Of a stretch of 64,000 nt of DNA, positions 8,425 through 56,590 are shown in pieces (position 1 is the stretch's first letter; every line of letters starts with the position of its first letter). Location of the stretch: the NCBI RefSeq assembly GCF_030687395.1, contig NZ_CP117430.1:3162001-3226000 (forward strand), in the 5' to 3' direction. This DNA is from Pseudomonas wuhanensis. GTDB taxonomy: Bacteria; Pseudomonadota; Gammaproteobacteria; Pseudomonadales; Pseudomonadaceae. Under the pieces are notes generated by a model. That model did no database searches and was not told the DNA's origin. It saw nothing but the letters and a program-made list of their open reading frames with translations. Both the position numbers and the translations under genes were made by a program.

Positions 8425-8616
8425 CGGTGCACTGATAGTAGATCTTGGGAAAACGTCATCCGAACATACCTGATATTGAAATGGCGTTGGTTACCGGTTC
8501 GCTTAGGTTAGTACAGCTTGGACAAATACAAGGTCATGTTGAATGATCATGGGATCGACCAACTGCTACGCTTCTGAAGATCTATTAATCCAGGCCAAAA
8601 AAAGGTTAAGAAGACC

Positions 8617-9138
8617 ATGAGCAACCCTCAGGATGACAATGCACCTAGTTCCGCTGGTTGGCGCTTCAAACTGGGCATCGCGATTATCTGTTTGATGCTG
8701 GGATCGTGGCTGATGGTGCCTCTCGCTGCCACAGCGGGTGTGTCAGGTTCAAAGGTCGCGGCACTGACAGGCGTTTTGTTTATCAGTAACAAGATTCTGT
8801 TGATTCTCGCCATTGCCATCATGGGCAAATCCGGCTTTCAGCAACTCAAGCGCAGTATGTTTGGTTACGTCTCCTCGCTTGCACCGGCAGACGTGGAAGT
8901 GGGCCCGGCTCGCCATCGCATTGGTCTCGTGATGTTTTGCCTGCCGCTGATCTCGGGATTTCTCGAACCTTACATAGACACTCTTTGGCCGGGGCTGAGA
9001 CCGAATATCTGGCAGCTCCAGGCGCTGGGCGATGCCATGTTGATCGGCAGCTTTTTCGTGCTTGGCGGGAATTTCTGGGACAAGGTGCGCGCGTTGTTTA
9101 TTCGCACGGCACGCGTCGTTAATACGAGTGCGGTGTGA
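8617..9138 (+). CDS. Transporter-suffix-domain integral membrane protein
   Basis: 173 residues with four membrane spans (about 18-40, 47-68, 104-121, 134-153). The sequence resembles the small 'transporter suffix domain' proteins of pseudomonads; their role is unknown. The ATG is preceded by AAGAAG. It is divergent from the efflux operon and convergent with the response-regulator gene (7-bp gap). Confidence 0.75.
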   Translation: MSNPQDDNAPSSAGWRFKLGIAIICLMLGSWLMVPLAATAGVSGSKVAALTGVLFISNKILLILAIAIMGKSGFQQLKRSMFGYVSSLAPADVEVGPARHRIGLVMFCLPLISGFLEPYIDTLWPGLRPNIWQLQALGDAMLIGSFFVLGGNFWDKVRALFIRTARVVNTSAV

Positions 9139-9145
9139 ATCGCCT

Positions 9146-9787
9146 CTAACGGGAAATGATTCCGTGATCGATCGCGTACTTTACGAGGGCGGCGGGTTTG
9201 TCGATGTTGAGCTTGCGACGGATGCTCAGGCGATGGGTTTCTACCGTCCGGACACTGATGTCCAGTTCGCGAGCCATTTCCTTGTTGTTCAGCCCCTGAG
9301 CCATCTTGTACAGCACCTGGCTTTCGCGCGGAGTCAGCTCATTGTCGGTACTTTTATCGGCAATGAGCCGCTGCGCGATTTCGGCACTGTAGAACGTCCC
9401 GCCACTGACAATGGCTTCGATCGCCGCAATGATTTCCCGTGAAGGCGCGTTCTTCAGCACATAGCCGCTGGCACCCGAACGAACGGATTCACTCACGTAT
9501 TCATAGTTGTCGTACATGCTCAGCACCAGCACTTTGAGCGATGGGTACTGGCTGCGTAACAACCGGGTCAGTTCGAGGCCGTTGATGTCCTTCAGGCTGA
9601 TATCGACCAACAACAGATCCGGCTGGCAACGCCCGACCATCTCAATGGCATCGGCGCCATTCTCGGCTTCTCCCACCACTTCCAGCTGCGCCATGACCGC
9701 CAGCAGCGATTTGATTCCGTCGCGGACCAGGGAGTGATCGTCGACCAGGGCGACGCGGATCGGGTAGGGCAGGTTCATCGCAGGCAT
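9146..9787 (-). CDS. LuxR/NarL-family response regulator
   Basis: 213 residues. The receiver domain (about 10-125) has the acidic pair VDDH and the phospho-acceptor aspartate in LLLVDISL; the closing lysine is in YVLKNA. The LuxR helix-turn-helix covers about 150-205 (LTPRESQVLYKMAQGLNNKEMARELDIS). The start at 9787 follows TAGAGTGA; an internal ATG at 9778 is possible but lacks a site. It is paired with the upstream histidine kinase and lies next to cstA, so control of pyruvate or acetate uptake is the working inference. Confidence 0.92.
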   Translation of the reverse strand: MPAMNLPYPIRVALVDDHSLVRDGIKSLLAVMAQLEVVGEAENGADAIEMVGRCQPDLLLVDISLKDINGLELTRLLRSQYPSLKVLVLSMYDNYEYVSESVRSGASGYVLKNAPSREIIAAIEAIVSGGTFYSAEIAQRLIADKSTDNELTPRESQVLYKMAQGLNNKEMARELDISVRTVETHRLSIRRKLNIDKPAALVKYAIDHGIISR

Positions 9788-9812
9788 TCACTCTAATTGT
9801 TATGGGGGTGAG

Positions 9813-42644: not shown

Positions 42645-44963
42645 TTAACTAATGCCATTCGTTTGCGGCGGTAACAACCAATGTCGTTCGGTGGTCCATC
42701 CGAGAAAAACCTGAGCCCCCTCACTTTTCTGGCGGTTCAGGGTCAACGGGAGCCCGGAAGCTGCCACACGCAACCCCATAATTGCCGGTAGAAATCTCTC
42801 CCGGAATGCATTGGGTTGAGCCGCGAAATGAGCTTCGATGCTATCGATTGCGCAATGCCTCTCGGCGTCATCCTGCAAGGATAAATAAAACACCATCTGG
42901 CGCCAGGCATAAGCGGTATTTTTGAGCATCACCAAGCTTGAGTGATAGAACTTGATTTTCATCTGCTGCCGCATGCATATCCATTGGAAGCACTCCTGAG
43001 CAAGTGCACCCAAGCGATGATGTAGCAGCGCTTTCAAACCGAGATCACCAAATAGAAGCGAAAGGTTTTGCGTCGTCAAAATCTGTTGTTGCTCGATGAT
43101 CCTGCCGTTGGTTGCTGAATGCCACCCACCCAAGGGTGCATTAGCCCGCTGTGCGCACAGGTTCCCCAATGCATCACTGGTATCCAAGTCACGCTGGAAA
43201 TAGTTTCTGCTCTTTGATTTCGGCTTATCGGGAAGGATCGCCAGTTGGTTCGTGTCGATGTCGTAATAATGGGCGTAAAGGGTGCCATCTATCAACGAGG
43301 CTGCTCGCCTGGCTGCTTCCACGAATTTATTCGAAAAGGTTCCCATGAAAATGTCCGCCGCGACCTCCTCCACAAAAGGAAGATCCAGCTTCGCCGTGAC
43401 AGCAAGCGAACCAAACTCCTGAAGTAGCTTGTTCGGAAGGATTGCCTGGGGGAAAGCAGCGAGGGTTGTTGCCGAGGATTCGATCAAGGCTTGTCTGGCT
43501 CCCTCAACGGCGACAGTGTGTGCCTCTCGTTCACCTTCAACGGCCGCCACCCAAGGCAACTCACTGATTTTGACTTGGCTCTGTAGGTTGAGCAGCAGCA
43601 ATGAACGGCGTCGCCGAAAAGCACGATACGTTGCGATAGACAACGTGCGCAGTGTCGTATCGCGAAATCCAGCACTGCAGATTTCGGCCGTCATCGCTGG
43701 CAGTACTCGCGCCACGGTATCCCCAGATGTGATCAATCCCTTGTCAATCAACTGACTGATGGTTCCCTTTCGACAGCGCTCGAGGCGTCGGCTAACTGCT
43801 GGTGGAATGGCGACACCTGTTTTCAGCGAATATGCCTTCGCCTCCTCACTGGTAATCGGTTCCAACAGGGACGAAAAATCAGAGATGCCTTCCGAGCTCG
43901 TATAGCTGGTCAGACGCTCAGAAACCGCCTTGGCGATCAGATGATGCTCGGGCGCGGCCACCTGATGGCGCTGTATGGCTCGGCTCTGTAGATGATCTTC
44001 GGATTCGGGATGACCATGTTTGCACACGAAATCATTGACGATCCGCCGAATACGTCCGACTTGACGCCCTGTCAGCGAGGCTGGGTCACGGGAGCAGAGC
44101 CTTAGCAACGCGTACAACTCCCCTACCCGGCCCCTGAAAGGTTCAACGTTGAGGAGGTCATTGCTACCGGTGGCATCGAACTTACTACTTAGCGCATTCG
44201 CCTGCTCAAGCCAGCCTTCAGGATATTGCCGACAAGGCCAATCATCCTGGTACGTTAAGAGGAAGAGCGAGATAGCTGCATCGTAGAAAGGCAACCGAGT
44301 CACGACCACATGTTTTAGCACCGCCAGACGCTGCTGCGCAGGGAGTTTTGAAAGCAGCTTTTTGATATCGCCGACATCGAAGATCTGCACTTCCACCGCC
44401 GCGAGCGGTAGTCCGTCAGAAGCCATTGGAAAGAAACGCAGTTGCTCAAAAAAAGGGGCGATCGACTCAATCAATCTGCGTGCGTCCTCCGTGCGCTGCT
44501 GTCCCAACAGCCAAGCCACGTACAGTAGCGCTGCCTCTTCTGGTACATCGATCCGATAGTCGCTGTTCACCAGTTGCTTTTGCAGTGCTTCGATCCCCTC
44601 ATCCGTAAGGTGCCAGGTGTTGAGATCAAGTCGTTGAAAACCAGGGCGGATGCCTGGGATTGAGGCGGCCAGCCGCCGCTCGTACTCGGTCAGTGCACCA
44701 CCGGCCAGATACTGTCCAGTGGCAAAACCACCCGTGACCACCTCCAGTGTGACCCATTCAGGCACATCCACGAGTGGTATACGCGAGCCATACAGCGCGG
44801 TGCCCTGCACCATGTGTTCGACCACCTGCTGCCAGCGCTCAATCCGTTCGCGCGCTTTCTCAGTGTCTAGACCCGATGCGGTCAATGCTCGAGATAACTG
44901 AAAGACCGCATAACCGGCGTTTATGCCGGCCATAGCATCCGATTCCCTATCGTGCCTGGACAT
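42645..44963 (-). CDS. Large protein of unknown function, cotranscribed with a tRNA-like gene
   Basis: 772 residues with no family I recognise. No signal peptide or membrane span is evident; it is mostly helical, with Leu/Ala-rich stretches. An N-terminal block (MAGINAGYAVFQLSRALTAS, then VTLEVVTGGFATGQYLAGG) looks like a defined domain. A central basic run (YRAFRRRRSLLLLNLQSQ) follows, and the C-terminal half has many Gln, Cys and His (QECFQWICMRQQMKIKFYHSS). AAGGACAT lies directly before the ATG. The start is only 25 bp from the 3' end of a tRNA-Lys-like gene on the same strand, so the tRNA would sit in its leader. A cytoplasmic RNA-related role is a guess. Confidence 0.8.
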   Translation of the reverse strand: MSRHDRESDAMAGINAGYAVFQLSRALTASGLDTEKARERIERWQQVVEHMVQGTALYGSRIPLVDVPEWVTLEVVTGGFATGQYLAGGALTEYERRLAASIPGIRPGFQRLDLNTWHLTDEGIEALQKQLVNSDYRIDVPEEAALLYVAWLLGQQRTEDARRLIESIAPFFEQLRFFPMASDGLPLAAVEVQIFDVGDIKKLLSKLPAQQRLAVLKHVVVTRLPFYDAAISLFLLTYQDDWPCRQYPEGWLEQANALSSKFDATGSNDLLNVEPFRGRVGELYALLRLCSRDPASLTGRQVGRIRRIVNDFVCKHGHPESEDHLQSRAIQRHQVAAPEHHLIAKAVSERLTSYTSSEGISDFSSLLEPITSEEAKAYSLKTGVAIPPAVSRRLERCRKGTISQLIDKGLITSGDTVARVLPAMTAEICSAGFRDTTLRTLSIATYRAFRRRRSLLLLNLQSQVKISELPWVAAVEGEREAHTVAVEGARQALIESSATTLAAFPQAILPNKLLQEFGSLAVTAKLDLPFVEEVAADIFMGTFSNKFVEAARRAASLIDGTLYAHYYDIDTNQLAILPDKPKSKSRNYFQRDLDTSDALGNLCAQRANAPLGGWHSATNGRIIEQQQILTTQNLSLLFGDLGLKALLHHRLGALAQECFQWICMRQQMKIKFYHSSLVMLKNTAYAWRQMVFYLSLQDDAERHCAIDSIEAHFAAQPNAFRERFLPAIMGLRVAASGLPLTLNRQKSEGAQVFLGWTTERHWLLPPQTNGIS

Positions 44964-44988
44964 ATGTCCTTCTGACCCTGCGATGTAG

Positions 44989-45063
44989 TGGGGCCGGGGG
45001 CTGGATTCGAACCAGCGCCCACCCGGTTAAGAGCCGAGTGTTCTACCGCTGAACTACCCCGGA
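44989..45063 (-). tRNA. tRNA-Lys(CUU)-like gene, atypical
   Basis: 75 nt including an encoded CCA end. Arms seen: D stem GTTC/GAAC with a 7-nt loop, anticodon stem CTCGG/CCGGG with loop CTCTTAA (anticodon CTT, lysine), 5-nt variable loop, and T stem GCTGG/CCAGC with loop TTCGAAT. Oddities: the first acceptor pair is T-C, the discriminator is C instead of A, and the acceptor has only six pairs. It may be a divergent tRNA or a tRNA mimic rather than a housekeeping tRNA. Confidence 0.75.
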
Positions 45064-45173
45064 ACAGAGCGCACATTGTCTACTCGCAACGAACGAATGT
45101 GAAGATTGAAAACGTTGCCGCTCGTGACGCATATAGAGATTACTCCCGCTCGAAAATATTGGTGTAACTTCCT

Positions 45174-45183
45174 CCCCCCCCCC
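45174..45183. repeat. Homopolymer of ten C
   Basis: Ten consecutive C (G on the transcribed strand of the tRNA/772-residue unit), about 110 bp upstream of the tRNA-like gene. Such tracts slip during replication and could vary expression, or may be an assembly-length uncertainty. Confidence 0.7.
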
Positions 45184-45374: not shown

Positions 45375-45647
45375 GCCATAAGCCATCTCCTACACAGCGC
45401 TCCGAACTAAATCTGTGGTTTTTTGCGAAGTAAAGATTGGAAATCGAGACCCTGTCCTATAAATGAATAATTAGTTCGCGTATCTCAGCCACCAGAAACA
45501 ATGCTCTTGTCCAGCTTGGAGGGAGACTGTCTGTGTGTCTTTTCCTGTGTTTGTGCCAATTAGAACCATACCCACCACTCAACATAACCCTCAACGCCAC
45601 CTTTAAATGGCAGAATCGCCTTAACTTGATCGTTTTTGGAGACCACC

Positions 45648-47507
45648 ATGCTTCGCGTATTCGAACGAAGACTCGACCCCTTCCCGCCCGACGAGTTACC
45701 ACCGCCACCCGAAGGCCTGGCTCGGTTCCTTTGGGCGTGCACGCGGGGGGCGCGCGGCTATATTCTTGTGTTTGCGCTGCTCAGTGCCGGTGTGTCGATC
45801 TACGAAGCCTGGCTGTTTTCTTTCCTCGGTCAGGTCGTGGATCTGCTCTCGACCTGGCAGGCCGGTGGGGATGCGGCTGCGCAGGAAAGTCGCGTGTTGT
45901 GGGGCATGGGCATCGTAATGCTGACCAGCATCGGGCTGGTGGCGTTGCGTACCATGGTGCAGCACCAGATATTGGCGATCAATCTGCCGTTGCGGCTGCG
46001 TTGGGACTTCCACCGCCTGATGCTGCGGCAAAGCCTTTCGTTTTTTTCCGATGAGTTCTCCGGTCGGGTCACCACCAAGGTGATGCAGACTGCGCTGGCC
46101 GTGCGCGACGTGTTGTTCACCCTTATCGAGATCGCACCCGGAATCGGGGTGTATTTCATCGCGCTCATCGCACTGGCCGGCGGCTTCGCTCTGAAACTGA
46201 TGCTGCCCTTCGTTGCCTGGATCGTGTTGTTCGGGCTGGCCATGCTCTATTTCGTCCCCCGCTTGGGGAAAGTCGGACAGGAACAGGCCCATGCGCGCTC
46301 CTCGATGACCGGACGTATCTCAGACGCCTACACCAACATCACGACAGTGAAACTGTTCTCCCATTCCAATCGTGAAGCGCACTTCGCGCGCGCGGCCATG
46401 GAAGATTTCAAGCAAACGGGCTTCCGCCAGATGCGCCTGGTCAGCCAATTCGAGATCGTCAACCAAGCGTTGGTGGTGGCGTTGATCATGGCAGCAGGCG
46501 GTTATGCGCTTTGGCTGTGGCACTTGGGCGAAGTCGGCACAGGTGCCGTGGCGGCGATTACCGCCATGGCGTTGCGTATCAACGGCATGTCGCACTGGAT
46601 CATGTGGCAAATGACCTCGCTGTTCGAGAGCATCGGCACCGTGCAGGATGGCATGGCAACCCTTACCCGCGGCCCCAAGGTGCAGGATGCGCCGAACGCG
46701 GGCGTCCTGGTGACCTCCGGCGGCGCGGTAACTTTCGACAACGTGAGCTTCAACTACAATGGCGAACGCCAAGTGCTCGATGGCCTGAGCCTGAACATTC
46801 GTCCGGGCGAAAAAATCGGCCTGGTGGGCCGCTCCGGCGCGGGAAAATCCACGCTCATCAACTTGCTTCTGCGCTTCTATGACGTCGACAGCGGGCAGAT
46901 TCGCATTGACGGGCAAGACATTGCGCACGTGACGCAAGACAGCCTGCGCAGTGCCATCGGCATGGTCACCCAGGATACCTCCCTGCTGCACCGCTCCATT
47001 CGCGACAACATCGCCTACGGCCGACCCGATGCAAGCGACGCCCAAATCCGCAGTGCCGCGGCCAATGCCCAGGCCGATGAGTTCATCAGCCAACTGAGCG
47101 ACCGGCAAGGCCACACCGGCTACGACACCTTGGTGGGCGAACGCGGCATCAAGCTGTCGGGCGGCCAGCGCCAGCGCGTCGCGATTGCCCGAGTGATGCT
47201 CAAGAACGCCCCGATCCTGCTACTTGACGAGGCTACCAGCGCGCTGGATTCGGAAGTCGAAGTGGCCATTCAGGAAAGCCTCGATGAAATGATGCAGGGC
47301 AAAACCGTAATCGCCATCGCCCATCGGCTGTCCACGATTGCGGCGATGGATCGACTGATTGTCATGGATGATGGACGCATCATCGAACAAGGCACCCACA
47401 CCGAATTGCTCGCTAAAAACGGCATCTATGCACGGCTGTGGCACCATCAGAGTGGCGGGTTCCTGGGTGAGGATCGGGGGGTGACCGAGGCTATGGATCA
47501 GGCATGA
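45648..47507 (+). CDS. ABC exporter, fused membrane and ATPase half-transporter (MsbA/ABCB type)
   Basis: 619 residues from the ATG at 45648 (GGAG upstream). Six spans lie in residues about 30-330. The ATPase has Walker A GRSGAGKST, the Q-loop VTQDTSLLHRSIRDNIAYG, signature LSGGQRQR, Walker B ILLLDEATSALD and the switch histidine in AIAHRLSTI. It works as a dimer. The substrate is unknown; no partner genes are adjacent. Confidence 0.92.
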   Translation: MLRVFERRLDPFPPDELPPPPEGLARFLWACTRGARGYILVFALLSAGVSIYEAWLFSFLGQVVDLLSTWQAGGDAAAQESRVLWGMGIVMLTSIGLVALRTMVQHQILAINLPLRLRWDFHRLMLRQSLSFFSDEFSGRVTTKVMQTALAVRDVLFTLIEIAPGIGVYFIALIALAGGFALKLMLPFVAWIVLFGLAMLYFVPRLGKVGQEQAHARSSMTGRISDAYTNITTVKLFSHSNREAHFARAAMEDFKQTGFRQMRLVSQFEIVNQALVVALIMAAGGYALWLWHLGEVGTGAVAAITAMALRINGMSHWIMWQMTSLFESIGTVQDGMATLTRGPKVQDAPNAGVLVTSGGAVTFDNVSFNYNGERQVLDGLSLNIRPGEKIGLVGRSGAGKSTLINLLLRFYDVDSGQIRIDGQDIAHVTQDSLRSAIGMVTQDTSLLHRSIRDNIAYGRPDASDAQIRSAAANAQADEFISQLSDRQGHTGYDTLVGERGIKLSGGQRQRVAIARVMLKNAPILLLDEATSALDSEVEVAIQESLDEMMQGKTVIAIAHRLSTIAAMDRLIVMDDGRIIEQGTHTELLAKNGIYARLWHHQSGGFLGEDRGVTEAMDQA

Positions 47508-51547: not shown

Positions 51548-51757
51548 GGCATCGCTCGCTACCTGAGCAAGCGTCAACAGAACGTTACTTTTCAGAAATA
51601 TCTCAAAATCCCTCGCAACCGCTAATCAGTTAGTTCGGTTTTTTGACGCTTCCCCGATATGCGGTCACAACTTTTGCGCTCCGCTGGGTCATAACACGGT
51701 AGCTGTCGATGGAATATTGGCATTTACCGAGATTTCGCCTGATACGGAGATAAGCTC

Positions 51758-54700
51758 ATGATTTTCGATGTACAAAATTTTGGCGCCAAAGGAGATGGCA
51801 TCACTGACGACACGGCGGCAATACAAAGTGCAATTGATGCGGCGGCCGCTGCAGGCGGGGGGCAGGTGTATATGCCGACCGGAACTTATATCGTTTCGGG
51901 AGGCGAGGAACCGTCCGACGGCTGCCTGATGCTCAAGAGCAACGTCTACCTGTACGGCGACGGCATGGGCGCAACCACCGTCAAGGTCGCTGACGGCTCC
52001 GACACCAAAATCACGGGGGTCATCCGCTCCGCCTATGGCGAGCAAACCCACGACTTCGGCGTCAGCCACCTCACCATCGATGGCAACCGTGACAACACCA
52101 CGGGCAAGATCGACGGTTGGTTCAACGGCTACATTCCCGGCGAAGAAGGCTACGACTCCAACGTCACCCTCGACAGCGTCGAGATCAAGGATTGCTCCGG
52201 GTACGGTTTCGACCCTCACGAGCAGACCGTCAACATGGTCATCAAGAACAGCGTGTCCCACGGCAACGGCCTGGACGGCTTCGTTGCTGACTTCCTCAGC
52301 AATAGCACCTTCGAAAACAACATCGCCTACGACAACGACCGCCACGGTTTCAACATCGTTACCAGCACCCACGACTTCACGCTCACCAATAACGTTGCCT
52401 ACAACAATGGCGGCAACGGCATCGTGGTCCAGCGCGGCAGCGAGGACATCCCCTCCCCCAGCAACATCACCATCACCGGTGGCGAGGTGTACGGCAACGG
52501 CGCAGAAGGGGTGCTGATCAAAATGTCCAGCGAGGTGACGGTCAGCGGCGTCGATATTCACGACAACACCAGCGCCGGGATCCGCATCTACGGCAGCAAC
52601 CACGTCGAGATCATCGACAACACGCTCACCAACAACTCCCTGGGCAGCCCCGTACCAGAGATCATTATTCAGTCCTACAACGACACCCTGGGCGTGTCCG
52701 GCAAGTACTTCAACGGCAGCGATAACACCATCCAGGGCAACATCATTATCGGCAGCGACCTGTCGACCTACGGCGTCGCCGAACGCAATGAAGACGGCAC
52801 TGATCGCAACGCCATCATCGGCAATACCATCAGTCACACCAGCAACGGTGCCACGCTGGTCTATGGCGACGGCAGCTACGTCAGCGCCACGGTGCCGATG
52901 ACCACCGTACAAGGTACGGCTGGCAATGACACCTTGCTGGGCAGCGCCGCCAGCGAGATTTTCTACGGCGTTGCCGGCAACGACACCATCAATGGCGGGG
53001 CCGGTGGCGACATTCTGGTGGGTGGTGCAGGCATCGACAAACTCACCGGCGGAACCGGCGCCGATACGTTCCGTTTCACCGCACAGTCCGACAGTTACCG
53101 CAACGCAACCACAAGCTTCGATGACATCATCACCGACTTCGACGTCACCCAGGACAAGATCGACCTCGCCGACCTCGGCTTCACTGGCCTGGGCAATGGC
53201 CGTGGCGGCACCCTGCAGGTCAGCTACAGCGCCAGCAGCGACCGCACCTACATCAAGGACTTCGATGCCGACGCCAGCGGCAATCGCTTCGAGTTGATTC
53301 TCTCGGGTAACCTGACCAGCACCCTGACGGCCAATAACTTCATCTTTAATCGGGTGATCACCGGCACCAGCGGCAGCGACTCGCTGTTGGGCAGCGATTC
53401 GGCCGACACCCTCCTCGGCCTGGCGGGCAACGACAACCTCAGTGGCGGCGCGGGCAACGACAAGCTCGACGGCGGCGCAGGCATGGACACCCTCACCGGC
53501 GGTGCCGGGGCGGACACGTTCGTGTTTTCCAATCGTCTGGACAGTTACCGCAACTACAACACCGGCGGTGCCAACCTTGGTGACCTGATCACCGATTTCG
53601 ATATCACCGCCGACAAGATCGACCTCTCGGCCATAGGTTTCACCGGCCTGGGGGATGGCAAGAACAACACCGTGTACGTGGTGCTCAACAGTGCCGGCAC
53701 CAAGACTTACATTAAAACCCTGACCGCCGACGCCAATGGCAACCGCTTCGAAGTAGCACTGGACGGCAACTACCTCGGCAAGCTGACCAGCGCCAACTTC
53801 GTCTTCGCCACGTCGCCGACGGTCAACCATGCGCCGGTGGTGGCAACAGCATTGCTGGATCAGAATGCGACCGAAAACACCACGTTCAGCTACGCGGTGC
53901 CGGCCACCAGCTTCACCGATCCAGATAACGACAGCCTCAGTTACACCGCGACCCTGGCCGATGGCAGCGCCCTGCCCGCGTGGCTGAGCTTCAATGCCAC
54001 CAACCTGACCTTCACTGGCACGCCGACCAGCACCGCGTCCGGCAATTACAACGTGCTGGTCAAAGCCACGGACCCGGCCGGTGCGTCGGTCAGCGATAGC
54101 TTTGCCCTGGTAGTGGCCGATGCGCCCGTCAACACCATCACCGGCACCAACAATGCCGAAACCCTCAATGGCACGGCGGGTGCAGACCAGATCCTCGGCC
54201 TCGGTGGCAACGACACGATCAAGGCCGGCACCGGCGCGGACATCGTCGACGGCGGCGCCGGACGCGATTCGTTGTATGGCGGCGACGGTGCCGACACCTT
54301 CCGCTACACCAACGCGCTCGACAGCTACCGCGACTACGACACCGGTGGCATCACGGCCACCGACACGATTTATGACTTCACCGCCGGCGTCGACAAGATC
54401 GACGTTTCGGGCCTGGGCTATATCGGCCTGGGCGATGGCCACCATGGCACGTTGTACATCACCCTCAACGCGGCCGGCGACAAGACCTACATCAAGTCCG
54501 CCGAAGCGGATGCCGATGGCAATCGCTTTGAAATCGCCCTCAACGGCAACTACCTCAACACCCTGACCGCCAGTGACTTTGTGTTCGGCCAGAGCACCCC
54601 GCAGGAAATCCTCTACCTGCCCACCCTCGGCCAATCCAATACGCGCCTGCTGCGCATGACGGAGGACGACAATCAGTCCGGCACCTCAATGCTGGTCAAC

Positions 54701-56590
54701 GACCTGGACCGCTACACCCCCTATGACGTGCGCAGCCAGTTCACCGATGCCGATGGCAACGGCATCGACATCGCGGTGGGCGGCAGCACAGTCACCGGCG
54801 TGTCGACGCTCAGCGCCGAGGAACTCAAGTTGTGCTGGTGGCTGACCGACACCAACCAACCCGGGGCTGCGCTGTTGCGCGCCGTGACGCTGCTGCGCGA
54901 CCAACGCACCGAACTGCAATCGATCGATAACGTCACCATGGGCATCATTTGGGGCCAGGGCGAGGAAGCCGCCCAGGAGATCGCCCGCGCCACGGACAAA
55001 GCAGCGGCAGCAGCGGCCTACAAGGCCGCGACCCTGAAGGTGTTTGATTACCTGCATGCCCAGTTCGGCAACTTCAACGTGTATTTGATGGAAACCGGTC
55101 ACTACGAACAAGACGCGGCGCGTGCCCGTGGTTATTCGGAAGAAAAGATTGCCTCCATCGTCGAGGGGGTTGGCTATGTCCGCGCCGCCCAGGAAGCCAT
55201 CGCCGCCGAGCGCGCCGACGTCAAGCTGGCGGTGGACTACACCGACCTCCCCTTGCGCTACGATGTCGATCCGCTGACATATCCAGACGACGTCTGGCAC
55301 CTGCACGAGGAGTCGGCGGAGATCGTCGGTCAGCGCCTGGCCGACTACATTGCCAATGACCTTGGCTTCCAGGGCAACCCCAACGACAACAACAGCGTGC
55401 AGGCCATTTTCGACAACGCCCGGAACATGATTTCCGGTACCGACCAGGCGGATACCCTGGCGGGCAGCTCGGGCAACGACACGCTGGATGGCAAACTGGA
55501 CGCCGACACCATGACCGGTGGCAATGGCAACGACATCTATGTGGTCGATAACGCGCTCGACCGCGTGGTGGAAACCAACACCTCGACCTCGCAGATCGAT
55601 ACGGTGCAGGCCTCGATCAACTGGACCCTGGGCGCCAATCTTGAGAACCTGGTGCTCACCGGTGTGTCGGACATCAACGGCACCGGCAATGAGCGGCACA
55701 ACTTTATCACCGGCAATGCCGCCAATAACGTGCTCGATGGTGCCGCAGGGGACGACAGCATGAGCGGCGGCGATGGCAACGACACCTACTATGTCGACAA
55801 CGCCGACGACGCAGTGATCGAGACCGACAGCAATGCCGTTTCTGGAGGAGTCGACAGTGTGCACAGCAGCCTGGCGACCTATACCCTCGGCAACAACGTC
55901 GAGCGTCTGTCTATCGACAGCACTGGCGCTGCCAATGGCACGGGCAATGCGCTGGACAACACGCTGTTCGCCGGAGCCGGCAACAATGTGCTGGACGGGC
56001 GTGATGGCAATGACACGGTATCTTTTGAACGCGCCCTGTCCGGCGTTACCGTAAACCTCTCGACGTCAGCGCAACAAAACACCGTGAGTTCCGGGCTCGA
56101 CACCTTGAAACTCTTCGAAAACCTGATGGGAAGTGCCTACGCTGACAGTCTGTCAGGCGACAGTGCCGCGAACGTTCTGAACGGTGGTGCGGGCAACGAT
56201 ACGCTGGTGGGCGGTTCGGGTAATGATCGGCTGATCGGCGGTGCAGGCACCGACAACCTCACCGGTGGCACTGGCACGGATACCTACGCATTTGGTGCGC
56301 TGTCGGACATGGGCCTCGGGGCTTTGCGTGATGTGATCAACGGTTTCAAGAGCACCGAAGGCGATCTTCTGGATTTCACCGGCCTGGACGCCAACCCGCA
56401 GACCACCGCTGTCGACGCCTTCACCTTCATCGGCAGCAACGCCTTCGACCCTGCCGACGCCACGGGCCAACTGCGCTTTGCCGATGGCATTCTCTACGGC
56501 AGTGTCAACGCCGGGGCCACCCCTGAGTTCGAAATCCAACTGGTGGGCGTGCAGGAGCTGCACGCCAGCGATTTCACAGTTTTGAGTTAG
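51758..56590 (+). CDS. psmE: Secreted bifunctional mannuronan C5-epimerase and alginate O-acetylhydrolase (PsmE type)
   Basis: 1610 residues. The A-module (1 to ~385, right-handed beta-helix) has Y149, D152, H154 (YGFDPHE) and R195, the same residue numbers as the AlgE4 catalytic set. Then come two Ca-binding RTX modules (~390-680), an Ig/cadherin-like domain (~690-785, [18 protein letters not shown]), another RTX module (~790-945), an SGNH esterase domain (~949-1200; S960 in LGQSN, WGQGE at 1065-1069, D1178/H1181), and a long RTX C-terminus ending like type-I secretion signals. It would convert M to G residues and remove acetyl groups from extracellular alginate. P. syringae PsmE has this combination. 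GGAG precedes the ATG. Confidence 0.93.

Follow-up and report, generated by a model that had tools for sequence, protein, structure and literature searches.

The RNA and the protein gene of the Pseudomonas wuhanensis window

The DNA analysed here is a 64-kb stretch of the Pseudomonas wuhanensis contig NZ_CP117430.1 (hereafter the window, within which all positions are counted). Its subject is a pair of adjacent elements on the minus strand: a transfer RNA (tRNA)-like RNA and, 25 bp 3′ of it, an open reading frame (ORF) coding for a 772-residue protein. An earlier inspection of the letters without database searches (the sequence-only reading) had described a tRNA-like gene 25 bp before this ORF on the same strand, with a ribosome site AAGGA between the two, and ARAGORN, Rfam and the ORF call confirm the arrangement (table 1). 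The RNA is the sole tRNA reported by ARAGORN in the window, under the name tRNA-Lys(CTT). Rfam places it in RF00005 with 61.4 bits against a gathering score of 29; only this family reaches its gathering score, and no Y RNA is matched in the window.

Table 1. Features of the RNA–protein locus in the window.
Feature	Position	Strand	Characteristics and basis
Promoter-like site TTCACA-17-GACAAT	45075..45103	-	11 bp upstream of the RNA; 9/12 consensus match
tRNA-like RNA	44989..45063	-	full cloverleaf, CCA encoded; ARAGORN, Rfam, family model R1 (92 bits)
Hypervariable N34-N37 of the RNA loop	45028..45031	-	CTTA in the window; loop comparison, parsimony
Ribosome-site-like AAGGA	44967..44971	-	between RNA and start codon; sequence
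772-residue protein gene	42645..44963	-	product almost wholly helical, unnamed family; ORF call, searches, model

The protein had been said to match no known family, and the searches agree. Pfam gives no family at E up to 1 for the window protein, hence neither TROVE nor SPFH by sequence, and the best PADLOC match (E 0.065) is not above chance. Nothing above chance was obtained from NCBIfam and PHROGs with the window protein and two homologues, or from the PDB sequences with two profiles (best E 0.37). Two structure models, with predicted local distance difference test (pLDDT) values of 81.7 and 90.3, are confident and helical. Foldseek and VIA-align found no significant match for either model, only scattered helical ones, and gave no match usable for or against a TROVE-like fold. 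The suggestion that structure prediction might disclose an RNA-binding fold was not borne out: neither such a fold nor a nuclease motif or fold was recognised in the searches with the protein sequence and models. The protein belongs to a large family without a name.

Linkage and distribution of the unit

A genome scan yielded 365 relatives of the protein, and the best 80, that is the best-scoring part of the family, were examined as loci. They span Pseudomonas, Xanthomonadales, Burkholderiales, Acidobacteria, Chloroflexi, Planctomycetes, Verrucomicrobia, Myxococcota, Actinobacteria, Melainabacteria and others. In 68 of the 80, ARAGORN reports a same-strand tRNA no more than 400 bp upstream. 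A covariance model built from 53 of the RNAs adds those of loci L059 and L065, which brings the count to 70 of the 79 loci with upstream sequence (L027, beginning at a contig end, was left out); the association proposed from the single window thus holds for homologues across phyla. The model also finds the RNA at all six actinobacterial plasmid loci, and the RNA stands beside each of 16 near-full-length Streptomyces copies of the protein and in all 11 matching genomes of the family to which a Massilia locus belongs.

The distance from the RNA to the protein match is 2 to 141 bp, with a median of 25, and at most 75 bp in 68 of these 70 loci. In most Streptomyces loci inspected the RNA abuts the ATG. 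Three promoter-like sites are present in the window region, where 2.4 are expected by chance. The one ahead of the RNA recurs exactly, with equal spacing and at an equal 11 bp, in 22 of 28 Pseudomonas loci; the remaining six (L002, L005, L006, L011, L021 and L082) carry near-matches, and the Streptomyces loci have their own recurring promoter-like motif ahead of the RNA, read by eye. In the window, to which the terminator scan was confined, there is no terminator between RNA and gene, the sole terminator-like site lying inside the ORF. Since the short gaps leave hardly any room for a second promoter, and the promoter sequence is conserved, the RNA and the protein gene are probably co-transcribed. 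About 70 bp before the promoter-like site, the minus strand carries a run of ten G (45174-45183) that might be a slippage tract.

The window unit is found at the border of an accessory region: homology to eight relatives ends at 45582-45609, as could be expected of a chance neighbour or of a scar left by integration at a tRNA gene. This explanation is already refuted by the phylum-wide linkage of the protein with one specific RNA family. Moreover, across 119 Pseudomonas genomes the model gives scores above 71 bits in four (92 to 96 bits), and nowhere but next to the protein or what remains of it; all other tRNAs score 70.8 bits or less. The Streptomyces-type RNAs reach only 61 to 76 bits, so that position and sequence features, not the score, identify them. 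The RNA and the protein form one conserved unit across phyla.

The unit is accessory and patchy in distribution. The protein is matched in eight of 199 Pseudomonas genomes (six intact, one broken into two pieces in genome G033, one reduced to a 23-residue remnant), in two of 398 genomes of the phylum, counting the window's own, and in 11 of 294 genomes of the family of a Massilia locus. There are 23 matching genomes among 150 of Streptomyces, 16 with near-full-length copies (that of G935 aligns as two pieces of one open frame) and seven with partial ones, some of which contain stops or are reduced to fragments. An RNA match of 49.5-65.8 bits persists beside four of the seven partial copies, and a strong one beside the broken copy of G033. 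In one Streptomyces genome (L173, L179) a partial homologue has a 563-codon open frame; its match starts at residue 168 and the RNA match lies directly there, as if a shorter version of the protein had kept the RNA in front. Six of 72,556 plasmid records match, every one actinobacterial. A phage origin was considered and rejected: no protein match occurs in 50,697 phage records, none was confirmed among viral contigs, and one exact RNA pattern has no match in the phage and viral sequences searched.

A constant tRNA body with a changing anticodon loop

In the 53-sequence alignment, 99.4% of the pair cells hold standard pairs. Two-sided changes are seen in 14 of 21 stem pairs; none of 500 shuffles comes near this signal, and sliding the partners abolishes it. 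The contact between D-loop and T-loop changes jointly as well. Among 87 distinct RNAs (drawn from 113 rows, with one ordinary tRNA-Val of L025 dropped), G18 accompanies U55 in 55, which are all the RNAs with U55, and A18 accompanies G55 in 26 of the 31 with G55. The latter form arises in separate lineages, namely Streptomyces, Embleya and Curtobacterium, and L053, L059, L071 and L079 of other phyla. Three RNAs counted as G18/G55 have longer D-loops, in which A–G is by eye the matching pair; the remaining contacts are U18 with G55 (two RNAs) and G18 with C55 (one). In the Streptomyces type, T54 and A58 are replaced by G, and CCA is mostly not encoded. Single-sequence folding is not decisive (energy z -0.9 to -1.6), and the minimum-energy fold of the window RNA differs from the exact cloverleaf. 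The strong stem covariation and the joint changes of the two loops indicate that a tRNA-shaped RNA is under selection.

The sequence-only reading had considered this tRNA odd because of its first acceptor pair T–C and its C discriminator. Both are present, but only the former is unusual. The T–C pair is local, the nearest homologue (L002, protein 97% identical) having T–A and C occurring at that position in only two of 102 RNAs, window included. A C discriminator is usual for the family (60 C, 19 T and 23 G among the 102).

With each locus represented by a single RNA (102 in all), parsimony on the protein tree requires 27, 33, 33 and 26 changes at N34, N35, N36 and N37, and 0 to 14 at the stem and most core positions; the branch shared by L161 and L163 in this tree is too long to be plausible and probably reflects a misalignment. 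One T-loop position (16 changes) is also fast, as are tRNA positions 16, 20, 26 and 59 and the last base (23 to 27). Positions 16, 20, 26 and 59, in loops and junctions, are usually free in tRNAs, and the counts therefore put the pace of anticodon change on a par with that of the least constrained tRNA positions. Loops of seven nucleotides, as in the window RNA, are found in 77 of the 87 RNAs and include 33 different N34-N37 four-mers, so the label tRNA-Lys(CUU) of the sequence-only reading names the least conserved part of the molecule and is not supported; the other ten have six-nucleotide loops. Two pairs of loci, L007/L022 and L155/L158 (proteins 96% and 88% identical, respectively), have identical bodies over positions 1-71 apart from the loop, with different anticodons. 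According to ARAGORN names and loops, one body carries anticodons of at least 13 amino acids.

Most loci have a single RNA. Tandem RNAs occur in nine of 103 searched stretches (L039, L052, L054, L066, L071, L076, L080, L095 and L165), each with at least two different loops, although two of the three L095 copies share N34-N37; one copy in L066 is about 430 bp upstream. The loops are also biased. A is never found at N34 and residue 1 is a pyrimidine in all 87 RNAs; C32 and U33 are invariant in the 102. G37 follows G36 in 33 of 33 seven-nucleotide loops and A37 follows A36 in none of ten. Four-mers recur more than under column shuffling (33 seen against 45 expected, 0 of 5000 shuffles as low, with relatives thinned only crudely). 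These biases at N34, residue 1 and 36-37, together with the recurrence, mark the loop set as a repertoire and not noise.

A constant body with a churning anticodon makes decoding unlikely, and the tRNA-Lys label misleading. If the RNA were a working or suppressor tRNA that the protein serves to mature or to charge, the good cloverleaf, the constant U33 and the lack of A at N34 would be natural, as would G36-G37, the sequence found at m1G37 methylation sites in tRNAs. Anticodons of so many amino acids on one body, six-nucleotide loops, the pyrimidine at residue 1 and the absence of a U54-U/C55 T-loop start from 31 of the 87 RNAs make this the least probable of the explanations that the linkage leaves standing. 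In the accessible part of a review on tRNA identity, C73 is given as a bacterial determinant only for histidine, together with G-1 (PMC9976931), whereas the present family has a pyrimidine at 1 and mostly a pyrimidine at 73.

The short distances to the protein match, down to 2 bp, and the RNAs abutting the ATG in Streptomyces would suit a cis-acting leader, in which the tRNA-like fold is an operator on the messenger RNA (mRNA), for example for autoregulation by the protein, or an RNase P/Z site setting the mRNA 5′ end. We regard this as rather improbable: distances vary up to 141 bp, tandem copies differ in their loops and may lie far upstream (L066), the whole tRNA shape is under selection, and the turnover of the loop would be left without a reason. 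A guide particle, with N34-N37 pairing as a short guide to a target RNA or DNA, would account for the constant scaffold, the variable loop and the differing loops of tandem copies. A guide of three or four bases would be very short, however, and the absent A at N34 and the fixed 36-37 combinations are odd for a free guide, which makes it quite improbable.

RNA-repair neighbours and a possible role in RNA damage

The sequence-only reading had pointed to bacterial RNA-repair (Rtc) operons, while noting no rtcA, rtcB or rtcR here. Probes for rtcA, rtcB, Hen1 and RNA ligase (rtcR was not among them) found no repair gene in the window; a link to repair does appear at homologous loci. Of 159 neighbour proteins at 45 selected loci, 133 were scanned with Pfam, which gave one match each to RtcB, RTC and Hen1, and follow-up by motif, Pfam and tblastn places repair genes (RtcA/RtcB, Hen1, or an RNA ligase with HD-kinase) near 13 of 106 loci (1.22 Mb), in seven tree groups. 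In L031 (Chloracidobacterium) rtcB and then rtcA lie directly upstream of the RNA; L063 (Undibacterium) has the order rtcB-rtcA-DUF6847-RNA-protein-rtcB; L147 has rtcA immediately ahead of the RNA and rtcB behind the protein gene; and in L041 rtcB (8434-9810) directly follows a homologue without a recognisable RNA. Two loci encode Hen1: in L039 it lies 330 bp upstream and divergently, in L070 some 4 kb upstream. L050 (Hahella) has an RNA ligase with its HD-kinase partner about 2 kb upstream, on the far side of an ABC (ATP-binding cassette) transporter gene; in L062, L066, L075, L141, L144 and L145 (Massilia group) one or both of these two genes follow the protein gene, on the opposite strand. 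The repair genes differ between the sister branches L031 and L039. The RtcB beside the unit in L031 (2735-4684) contains an intein (Pfam Intein_splicing), and both L063 (5062-5514) and L031 (615-1067) encode a DUF6847 protein.

The repair probes match nothing in 60 control stretches, each 20 kb long and placed at a round coordinate in one of 14 host genomes (1.20 Mb altogether), nor in any of 34 other stretches, a control too small to mean much (0.21 Mb, window included). RtcB is encoded somewhere in 18 of 21 host genomes tested (one to four matches each) and in nine of the 14 control genomes; by estimate, about 0.3-0.4 RtcB cases would be expected by chance in 1.22 Mb, against four loci in three groups. 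In the window's genome rtcB is about 460 kb away from the unit.

As to other neighbours, a conserved operon partner was sought by self-BLAST of 611 neighbour ORFs and rejected, none being widely shared. PADLOC matches a few of the 133 neighbour proteins (mads, AriA and PDC-S02 among those listed, 25 of 35 families); these matches are without a background control and nothing is claimed from them. The window (45636-47507) and L050 (3744-5579) each have a divergent ABC transporter gene immediately ahead of the RNA, the two products being 52% identical, and L040 has a weaker match farther off. Elsewhere in the window, a mechanical ORF of 981 residues (51689-54634) is antisense within the gene of a 1610-residue RTX-repeat, beta-helix protein (51758-56590) and is probably not a gene.

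The variation of the loop at the target of anticodon nucleases and the repair enzymes beside some copies lead us to favour, tentatively, an accessory ribonucleoprotein in RNA-damage defence, whose tRNA mimic would offer its variable anticodon loop as bait or pseudosubstrate. From the promoter just upstream, a transcript would start with the mimic and continue into the protein gene; the mimic would be excised, probably by tRNA-maturation enzymes, and held by the helical protein. The tRNA-shaped body would then be the constant handle and the loop the exchangeable bait for anticodon nucleases of phages, of rivals or of the host cell. Once the bait had been cut or bound, the protein might either soak up the attack or signal it, and some hosts encode RNA-repair enzymes alongside. 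With less confidence, we consider it possible that this amounts to a sentinel system over many phyla, in which the loops, in lone copies or in small arrays, have been varied to serve as interchangeable baits for enzymes that cut anticodons, and to which various RNA-repair enzymes have been added alongside. RloC chemistry leads to loss of the tRNA wobble base, and the six-nucleotide loops may mimic tRNAs that have lost it.

The main rival is a type III-like toxin–antitoxin or abortive infection system, in which the protein would be a toxin, perhaps a tRNA nuclease, and the mimic an antitoxin occupying it, with a loop matching the target. The RNA directly upstream, probably in one transcript, the occasional tandem copies, the patchy distribution with partial or decayed proteins, and the RNA matches persisting beside such proteins in Streptomyces and G033 all accord with it, as does the layout of AbiF and ToxIN (PMC12373285). 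We judge it unlikely, given that neither nuclease motif nor fold was recognised, that the PADLOC match is so poor and that loops differ beside proteins 88-96% identical; type III systems also have a terminator between RNA and gene, according to the same source, which the window lacks. AbiF/RCd22 and the type III systems resemble the present unit in their structured RNA, sometimes tandem and directly upstream, and in their accessory, patchy occurrence, but differ in that the RNA is here a tRNA mimic and the protein lies outside the searched families.

Several observations weigh against the bait proposal. At most loci, that of the window among them, repair genes are absent from the neighbourhood, and the probes for them were selected once such genes had already come to light at these loci. 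Nine loci (L041, L045, L051, L060, L061, L064, L072, L077 and L081) lack a recognisable RNA; their proteins fall in two adjacent clades of the tree. In the whole genomes of L051, L060, L072 and L077 the best model scores, 68.5-68.7 bits, are in the range of ordinary tRNAs, although a divergent RNA could hide there, given the low scores of Streptomyces-type members. Several RNAs lack an encoded CCA or a canonical T-loop, and the fixed 36-37 combinations mean that the loops do not simply copy those of natural tRNAs. In Streptomyces no protein column tracks the loop better than chance would allow (26 of 100 permutations did as well); in Pseudomonas one nominally does so (two of 100), but loop variation there is confounded with descent. 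No convincing specificity residues emerged in the protein. Finally, the tRNA-like YrlA was not cut in a Salmonella case (PMC7790460).

The same source records a suggestion by its authors that YrlA, a tRNA-like RNA of rtcBA operons, may be a competitive inhibitor of an anticodon nuclease, and describes Ro60/Rsr (TROVE) proteins with this Y RNA in rsr-yrlBA-rtcBA RNA-repair operons (PMC7790460). As there, a protein gene stands here beside a tRNA-like non-coding RNA, sometimes next to rtcA/rtcB; unlike there, the protein has no Pfam TROVE match, the RNA, which directly precedes the protein gene, is a plain cloverleaf whose anticodon is hypervariable, and repair genes are usually absent.

Burroughs and Aravind (2016) reportedly described RNA-repair systems in which SPFH/Band-7 modules go with a 'novel tRNA-like molecule', which would likewise tie a tRNA-like RNA to repair loci; the window protein is not SPFH by Pfam. 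Transfer-messenger RNA and viral tRNA-like structures also put the tRNA shape to other purposes, but we know of none that joins an unvarying body and a hypervariable anticodon to a single protein family. In the literature searched, which left out most subscription papers, no report was recognised as describing this RNA–protein pair, and we do not claim that none is in print. The pair would be new provided that the molecule of Burroughs and Aravind is a different one.

These RNAs are at present miscounted by a tRNA gene finder as Lys, Gln, Arg, selenocysteine or undetermined tRNAs. Keeping the body of a tRNA while rewriting its anticodon is the reverse of normal tRNA evolution. Damage to tRNA is a main battleground of bacteria, phages and rivals, and the unit, a simple two-part one of an RNA of about 75 nucleotides and one gene that is directly testable, points to an unrecognised way in which bacteria may watch or deflect such damage.

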